32,973 nt of DNA from NCBI GenBank assembly GCA_005878525.1, contig VBMB01000143.1:1-32973 (forward strand). Reading direction: 5' to 3'. The translations under genes and the position numbers were made by a program. The notes beneath the pieces were generated by a model. That model did not search any database, was not told where the DNA came from, and was given only the letters and a program-made list of their open reading frames with translations. Of the stretch, positions 14,373 through 16,584 are shown piece by piece; within the stretch, counting starts at the first letter, position 1; each line of letters starts with the position of its first letter. This stretch comes from Methanobacteriota archaeon. Lineage in GTDB: Archaea > Thermoplasmatota > Thermoplasmata > RBG-16-68-12.

Positions 14373-15194
14373 TTACCATTTCGCCTCAGCTTCCAAGAGC
14401 GCCGCATAGCCATCCTGAATCGTGCGGGTCACTCGGCCGGGGGCTTCCATTCGTCGCCCATCGACCGAAGCAATGCCGAGGACGCCGACCCCGCTGCCGG
14501 AGAGGAACACCTCGTCGGCCCCGCGCAGCCGATCGAGCGAGACGAATATCTCCCGCGCCCGGATCTTGGCCCGCGCCGCAATCTCGAGGACCGCACTTCG
14601 GGTGATTCCAGGAAGCGCACCCTCGTACGTCGGGGGCGTCTGGAGGGATCCGCCCGAGACGAGGAACACGTTGCGCGCGGTCGTCTCGACCACGCGACCT
14701 TTTTCGTTGAGGAGGACCGCATCGAAGGCGCCTTCCGCCTCGGCCTCTCGCAGCGCGACCGCCTCCGCGCCGCGGGCGATCGATTTGACCTGACTCATCG
14801 GGCCGGACATCCGCCGGATGGAGACCGCGACGTGCAACGCCGGTTGCGACGGAATCTCTGGGAGGGCGCGGGACGTAATCGTCGCCATCCCTCGGGTCGT
14901 GGGCCGCTCTCCCGAGATGACCGTGATCCGGGCAAGACCCTCAACGACGCCGTTGGCCTCGACAACCTTCCTCGCGCCTTGACGGAGGTCCTCGAATCCC
15001 CATGGTGGTTCGATACGTAGGACTTCCAGAGCGGACCGAAGCCGTTCGAAGTGCGCCTCGAGTCGGAAAGGTGCCCCGCGGTGGATTCGGATTGTCTCGA
15101 AGCATCCGTCCCCGTACAGGAACCCGCGGCTCCCAATCGGGACTCGCGCGTCGTCCTCGGAGATCAGGGCGCCGTCAAGCCACGCGGAGGCCGT
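14373..15194 (-). CDS. pabC: Class IV aminotransferase, probable aminodeoxychorismate lyase, with no standard start codon
   Basis: This PLP enzyme would release pyruvate from aminodeoxychorismate to give p-aminobenzoate. The reading frame contains a full-length family member: WLDGALISEDDARV, GSRGFLYGDGCFETIR, a middle RITVISGERP, the PLP-lysine region SQVKSIARG, then EKGRVVETTARNVFLV and the glycine-rich SGSGVGVLGI. ATG 14888 is internal and would remove the N-terminal third. The frame opens at a TGA (15201-15203) and holds no ATG, GTG or TTG before the conserved N terminus. ACG 15194 follows GGAGGTGA by six bases and would give a normal 273-residue protein. A +1 frameshift from pabB (GCT-TGA-C, around 15174-15180) is the alternative, and a sequencing error in ATG the simplest. 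Branched-chain aminotransferase activity is possible; the pabB overlap favours PabC. Confidence 0.82.
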   Translation of the reverse strand, partial: TASAWLDGALISEDDARVPIGSRGFLYGDGCFETIRIHRGAPFRLEAHFERLRSALEVLRIEPPWGFEDLRQGARKVVEANGVVEGLARITVISGERPTTRGMATITSRALPEIPSQPALHVAVSIRRMSGPMSQVKSIARGAEAVALREAEAEGAFDAVLLNEKGRVVETTARNVFLVSGGSLQTPPTYEGALPGITRSAVLEIAARAKIRAREIFVSLDRLRGADEVFLSGSGVGVLGIASVDGRRMEAPGRVTRTIQDGYAALLEAEAKW

Positions 15195-16584
15195 CCGAGG
15201 TCACCTCCACGCGGTCTTGCGTGAGGGCCTCCTCATGTCCGCGGAGCTTGTCGAGCGTCTCCCGATACTCCGCCTCCGGGTCCGAGTCCGCCACGATGCC
15301 GCCGCCGACCGCGAAGTAGGCCGTCTCGCCGATGACGGTCGCCGTGCGGATCGCGATGTTCCAGTCGATGGAGCGATCCCAGGAGACGTATCCGATCGCG
15401 CCGGTGTACACGCCGCGGCGGTGCGGCTCGAGCCGCTCGATGATCTCCATGGCCCGCGGCTTCGGAGCGCCCGTAATCGAGCCGCCAGGGAACGTGGCCC
15501 TCAGCAGGTCGGGGATCGTCACATCGTTTCGAAGGCGTCCTCGCACCACGCTCTCCAGATGATGCACGTTCGGGAGGGTGCGAAGGCCCTTCAGGAGCGG
15601 CACGTGCACGCTGCGGAACTCGCACACCTTGCCGAGGTCGTTCCGCTCCAGGTCGACGATCATCACGTTCTCCGCGGCGTCTTTCTCGCTCGCGAGGAGT
15701 TCCCGCGCGAGGCGCTCGTCCTCCGCGGGCGTTCGACCGCGGGGCCGGGTCCCTTTGATCGGACGGGTCTCGATGTCCCGGCCGCGGACGCAGAGGAACC
15801 GTTCCGGACTCGCCGACAGCAGGCGGTGATCTCCCGCCTCGAGGAATCCACCGAACGTCGAGGGCGTGCGCGCCCGGAGGCGCTCGTACGCCGCCGTGGG
15901 CGTTCCTCGCAGCGGAAGCGCGACACGATGGGAGAGGTTGACCTGGTAGATCTCCCCGTCGTAGATCGCCCGTTTCGCTTCCTCGATCGTGTGGACGTAT
16001 GCATCTGGGTCGAGGGGTTCGATCGGGTGCGGTTCGGGAGGCACGCACAGCTGGTGCGGGATCGGCGGAGGTTCGTACGGGATGCGGGCGCGGGGGGCGA
16101 TTACGAACGTCTCGCCCCATACTCGGTCGAGGACGTACACACGCGGATAGATTGCGAAATGCATGTCCGGGAGCCGAAGGTCCGACAGTTTCTCATCCGG
16201 CAATCGTTCCATCTGGCGGCCCAGGTCGTACGCGAAGTAGCCTACGGGTCCTCCGAGGAACGGGTACGCCGGCGTGCCGGCGGTGGCCCAAGGCAGTGCG
16301 TCGACGAACTCGCCGAACGCTTCGAGTGGATTTCGATTGGTCGATGACTCGCCCCAAGGCGTCGCATATGCCGCGTTGGGACCGCGGCTCCGGAACCATC
16401 CGATGGGATCGGATCCGAGGAACGAATAGCGGGCCAGCTCCGGGTCCGGCAAGGAGGAATCGAGGAAGAACGGCCATCGACCGCGTTGCAGGCGACGAAA
16501 CAGAGCGATCGGATCCCGCCGGCCGATCGGACGCACCGTGAGACGCAGGCGCTCCGGCATCGAGAGGGCATCGGGAGAGCCCAT
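15175..16584 (-). CDS. pabB: Aminodeoxychorismate synthase component I
   Basis: A 469-residue chorismate-utilising enzyme. With ammonia, usually from a PabA subunit not seen here, it makes 4-amino-4-deoxychorismate, the first step to p-aminobenzoate and folate. The key sequence is RPIKGTRPRG with Lys at residue 277: this lysine separates PabB from anthranilate synthase TrpE, which has Ala there. Other chorismate-binding motifs are DGEIYQVNLSHR, LLSASPERFL, IVDLERNDLG and FPGGSITGAPKPRAME. ATG 16584 is taken as start; ATG 16560 is equally possible and neither has a ribosome binding site. The frame further up overlaps the VOC gene and looks non-coding. Its end overlaps the pabC frame, so the two form an operon. 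Confidence 0.9.
   Translation of the reverse strand: MGSPDALSMPERLRLTVRPIGRRDPIALFRRLQRGRWPFFLDSSLPDPELARYSFLGSDPIGWFRSRGPNAAYATPWGESSTNRNPLEAFGEFVDALPWATAGTPAYPFLGGPVGYFAYDLGRQMERLPDEKLSDLRLPDMHFAIYPRVYVLDRVWGETFVIAPRARIPYEPPPIPHQLCVPPEPHPIEPLDPDAYVHTIEEAKRAIYDGEIYQVNLSHRVALPLRGTPTAAYERLRARTPSTFGGFLEAGDHRLLSASPERFLCVRGRDIETRPIKGTRPRGRTPAEDERLARELLASEKDAAENVMIVDLERNDLGKVCEFRSVHVPLLKGLRTLPNVHHLESVVRGRLRNDVTIPDLLRATFPGGSITGAPKPRAMEIIERLEPHRRGVYTGAIGYVSWDRSIDWNIAIRTATVIGETAYFAVGGGIVADSDPEAEYRETLDKLRGHEEALTQDRVEVTSDGLRVA

Follow-up and report, generated by a model that had tools for sequence, protein, structure and literature searches.

Where does translation begin when a reading frame holds no standard start codon ahead of its conserved N terminus? 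The question is raised by two overlapping genes on the minus strand of the window, that is, the whole stretch of 32,973 nucleotides analysed, which is part of a 2.0-Mb draft genome made up of 165 contigs. The upstream gene (15175..16560) is pabB-like, of the aminodeoxychorismate/anthranilate synthase component I family (Chorismate_bind 5e-92, Anth_synt_I_N 3e-26), and scores 328.6 bits with the TIGR00553 pabB profile, for a cut-off of 328.4. Its frame is open to 16680 and ends at TGA 15177-15175; judged from the N termini of relatives, its start is probably ATG 16560. It overlaps by 20 nt a class IV aminotransferase frame of the pabC, or aminodeoxychorismate lyase-like, type (14373..15194), which runs for 273 codons from ACG 15194 to the stop TAA 14373-14375 and matches Pfam Aminotran_4 with E=7e-50. 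The scores of this frame fall below the curated PabC cut-offs (99.5 bits for the equivalog pabC_Proteo, versus 176.85), and the top-scoring family, a BCAT subfamily, is likewise below cut-off. The name pabC was therefore given by context: the frame has the Aminotran_4 domain, adjoins pabB, and lies in a genome with a folate pathway. The product may plausibly act in the synthesis of p-aminobenzoate, because the genome also encodes dihydropteroate synthase (DHPS, TIGR01496).

The first-pass annotation had reported that the pabC frame contains no ATG, GTG or TTG between an in-frame TGA (15201-15203) and ATG 14888, and that a full-length Shine-Dalgarno sequence, GGAGGTGA, stands six bases before ACG 15192-15194. 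Both statements were borne out, the former on the sequence as well as on its translation. ATG 14888, the first standard start in the frame, is residue 103 counting from the ACG. After TGA 15203-15201, which closes the frame upstream in all seven species carrying the gene (see below), the codons read CCT CGG ACG GCC TCC GCG TGG CTT GAC GGC. The Shine-Dalgarno lies at 15208-15201, within the pabB codons GTG-GAG-GTG-ACC, and overlaps this TGA. Its eight nucleotides are complementary to those at the 16S 3′ end of congeners, AUCACCUCCU; the 16S 3′ ends found in congeners are GGATCACCTCCT, giving eight paired bases with GGAGGTGA.

The singularity of this arrangement was assessed on the window and 60 other stretches of its genome, 739 kb in all. 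A count over 1.48 million strand positions gave 38 copies of GGAGGTGA, and the chance of encountering it at spacings 4-7 before any given codon is ~1e-4. Among 629 scored gene frames, ranked by codons lost before the first standard start, pabC is the most extreme, with its first standard start 96 codons past the coding start; it is not at the top when frames are ranked by the coding score lost upstream of that codon. A genome-wide habit of using ACG after strong Shine-Dalgarno sequences was rejected, pabC being the sole case in the 739 kb of an ACG placed near a gene start with a Shine-Dalgarno of at least 7 nt at spacing 3-7.

The ACG also falls where the protein is expected to begin. In phmmer alignments, residue 5 counted from the ACG aligns with residue 5 of the solved relatives 5mqz and 1daa, which places the ACG at the position of their Met1. 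The peptide predicted from such a start is (M)ASAWLDGALISEDDAR, with or without the Met. The closest PabC relatives found outside the genus are verrucomicrobial (L047 and L048, about 41% and 38% identity, respectively). They have the same two genes in the same relative frame, pabB running over the pabC start in a short overlap, and differ by having at the equivalent place an ATG, made by the pabB codons AAT-GCC. This shared overlapping layout, together with the closest PabC sequences outside the genus, suggests a transfer between bacteria and this archaeal genus.

We compared 19 genomes of the genus, 7 of which carry a pabB-linked pabC; the six other copies are 49-93% identical to that of the window. 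The run GGAGGTGA-N6-ACG was found at an identical place in 7/7 species, the whole conserved run being TGGAGGTGAC, and the pabB stop follows 17 nt after the A of the ACG in each of them. None of the seven has an ATG at the ACG site. Initiation at ACG, one of two routes that the first-pass annotation had proposed for pabC, is thus supported, as codon and Shine-Dalgarno are both unchanged in these relatives. Of the near-cognates of AUG lying between the upstream TGA and the conserved core, ACG alone is shared by the seven species, and in three of them (L003, L007 and L009) no standard start occurs before residue 74. In 6/7 species the pabB codon lying over the ACG is GAC (Asp), for which the synonymous GAT would create an ATG; in L009 this codon is CAC (His) and the ACG is still kept. 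Synonymous sites elsewhere in pabB are well scrambled, with only 14/97 fourfold wobble positions unchanged among five species, yet TGGAGGTGAC ranks third in length among the invariant runs of the pabB codon alignment.

These counts are to be read with some care. The seven pabC-carrying species share ancestry, so that 7/7 does not amount to seven independent events. Conservation of the A and the G of the ACG is partly explained by the Asp-Gly (GAC-GGC) of pabB, and the C alone is weak evidence, because GAC is favoured over GAT (about three times as frequent). Two further points weigh against initiation at the ACG: strong Shine-Dalgarno sequences are uncommon in this genome, and strings of the form GGAGGTGA-N4-7-ACG are found some 2 to 13 times in each genome. 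As for the product, pabC has a dN/dS of 0.13-0.27 among six species, and of about 0.5-0.64 against the most divergent one, for which synonymous sites are near saturation. Judged from the first of these values, pabC is translated, and its protein is made and under purifying selection.

Several observations on the comparison set can be added. A pabB-linked pabC is absent even from G016 and G017, which are about 98% complete, and DHPS is present in nearly all 19 genomes. In the closest relative (L004, from G013), pabB is split into two frames at 984-1140, around PabB residues 310-376, possibly by an assembly indel. Close relatives with names are the Euryarchaeota MAGs EA_6, EA_10, EA_11 and EA_24; by these isolate names, they would be soil Thermoplasmata of the Ca. 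Angelarchaeales / RBG-16-68-12 type, a group described from the Angelo reserve (PMC9038741).

We conclude that pabC is probably translated by Shine-Dalgarno-directed initiation at ACG 15194, which pabB termination probably assists. In the mechanism we propose, pabC would be translated from a joint pabB-pabC message, pairing of the 8-nt Shine-Dalgarno with the 16S 3′ end would place the initiator Met-tRNA on the ACG, which would thereby be decoded as Met, and ribosomes finishing pabB 17 nt further on would probably assist the start by translational coupling. ACG is a poor start in E. coli, which counts against this reading; a weak start may here keep the level of PabC low compared with that of PabB. 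We also considered a special initiator tRNA for ACG, which may still exist: the sole tRNA-Thr(CGT) detected is shaped like an ordinary elongator. The only tRNA-Met found carries an intron and reads CAT, and the initiator tRNA did not turn up in the assembly, which is incomplete.

The other route offered by the first-pass annotation was a programmed +1 frameshift at the end of pabB, GCT-TGA-C slipping to CTT-GAC, which would yield a PabB-PabC fusion. The pabC frame is indeed +1 relative to pabB, and TGA-C ends pabB in 7/7 species, an arrangement that recalls prfB (RF2). The resemblance stops there. The comparison of the slip site in relatives speaks against the shift, in that the heptamer GCTTGAC (stop TGA at 15175..15177) is kept in 5/7 species and replaced by GGTTGAC in L007 and GCGTGAC in L009; the codon before the stop is thus GCT, GGT or GCG according to species, rather than a conserved slippery codon, and in each of the three heptamers the P-site tRNA would re-pair poorly. 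In prfB, the Shine-Dalgarno-like stimulator precedes the slip codon by about 3 nt. Here 20 nt separate the end of the Shine-Dalgarno (15201) from the proposed slip codon GCT 15180, a spacing that fits initiation and not a prfB-type shift. Moreover, such an event would fuse two enzymes, unlike in prfB, and would leave a perfectly placed Shine-Dalgarno-ACG unexplained. We therefore regard the frameshift as unlikely.

Just as improbable, in our opinion, is the absence of any defined ACG start, ribosomes leaving pabB re-initiating elsewhere or at a codon that differs from species to species. Candidate codons do exist in some genomes, namely GTG at residue 4 (L005 and L006), TTG at residue 10 (L004) and GTG at residue 11 (L008). 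However, they are not conserved and lack the Shine-Dalgarno spacing, a start at residues 10-11 would cut off the conserved first strand, and L003, L007 and L009 offer no such codon in this region. Editing of the mRNA is a far less probable solution still: a C-to-U change would turn ACG into AUG, as described for start creation in plant chloroplasts (PMC9845219). A single C-to-T mutation, synonymous in pabB, would do the same in the DNA. To our knowledge, C-to-U editing of start codons in mRNA is not known in archaea. Finally, one might suspect a pseudogene in decay, or a mistake in sequencing or assembly, in draft metagenome assemblies, one of which has the pabB frame break mentioned above, but the probability is negligible, since the same codon in seven divergent species rules out an error at the pabC start, the frame is intact (275 codons in 6/7 species, 277 in the seventh), and its dN/dS is low.

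A second gene of the genus appears to use a non-standard start. In the genome of the window, pyruvate phosphate dikinase (ppdK) lacks any standard start upstream of the conserved N terminus. Across the loci compared (L213, at G000:C49:11036-11185 on the minus strand, L215-L226 and L228), the start position is CTG in 13 of the 14 readable genomes and ATG in the fourteenth (L228), so that a conserved CTG is apparently the start of ppdK. At many of these loci, a TATA-like TTATATA is present roughly 30-40 nt upstream, as expected if the ppdK message were leaderless-like. The ppdK case makes it more believable that the lineage tolerates near-cognate starts. A broader proposal, which we put forward only tentatively, is that start-codon selection is relaxed in this genus, with ACG (pabC) and CTG (ppdK) fixed as starts while the genus diverged, and that selection might maintain the ACG in order to hold PabC output low, comparable to the GTC of sigR.

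Natural starts outside ATG, GTG and TTG are known, such as the ATT of E. coli infC and the GTC of Streptomyces sigR (PMC5472188). The pabC case is similar in that it concerns one conserved gene with a start beyond the three standard codons, for which no standard start gives the complete protein and both codon and Shine-Dalgarno are conserved in 7/7 species; in all three genes the start probably sets a protein ratio by its low output, a role that for pabC would follow from our reading of the start. It differs by its codon, ACG, with a mismatch at the middle base, by the position of the start, which the gene upstream overlaps, and by its host, an archaeon without bacterial IF3. ACG itself is known as a start in eukaryotes, from mammalian initiation, and in chloroplasts, where it is edited to AUG (both as cited in PMC9845219). 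The codon is the same, but eukaryotes and organelles rely on scanning or RNA editing, whereas pabC would depend on a Shine-Dalgarno in an archaeal polycistronic message. In our literature search, whose coverage of subscription papers was incomplete, no description of an ACG start conserved among archaea or bacteria came up, and nothing relevant on ACG starts in archaea or with a Shine-Dalgarno.

Because a perfect ribosome-binding site with an ACG behind it is retained in all seven species, our results suggest that ribosomes naturally start PabC at a codon not normally accepted. NCBI table 11 lists CTG, ATT, ATC and ATA as extra starts, and not ACG. Gene finders restricted to standard starts will, in these genomes, cut PabC short or set its N terminus at the wrong place. 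If true, a natural, conserved archaeal ACG start would enlarge the range of codons to be admitted as starts in prokaryotic annotation, and pabC would provide a clean evolutionary case of a weak start retained though one synonymous change gives ATG.
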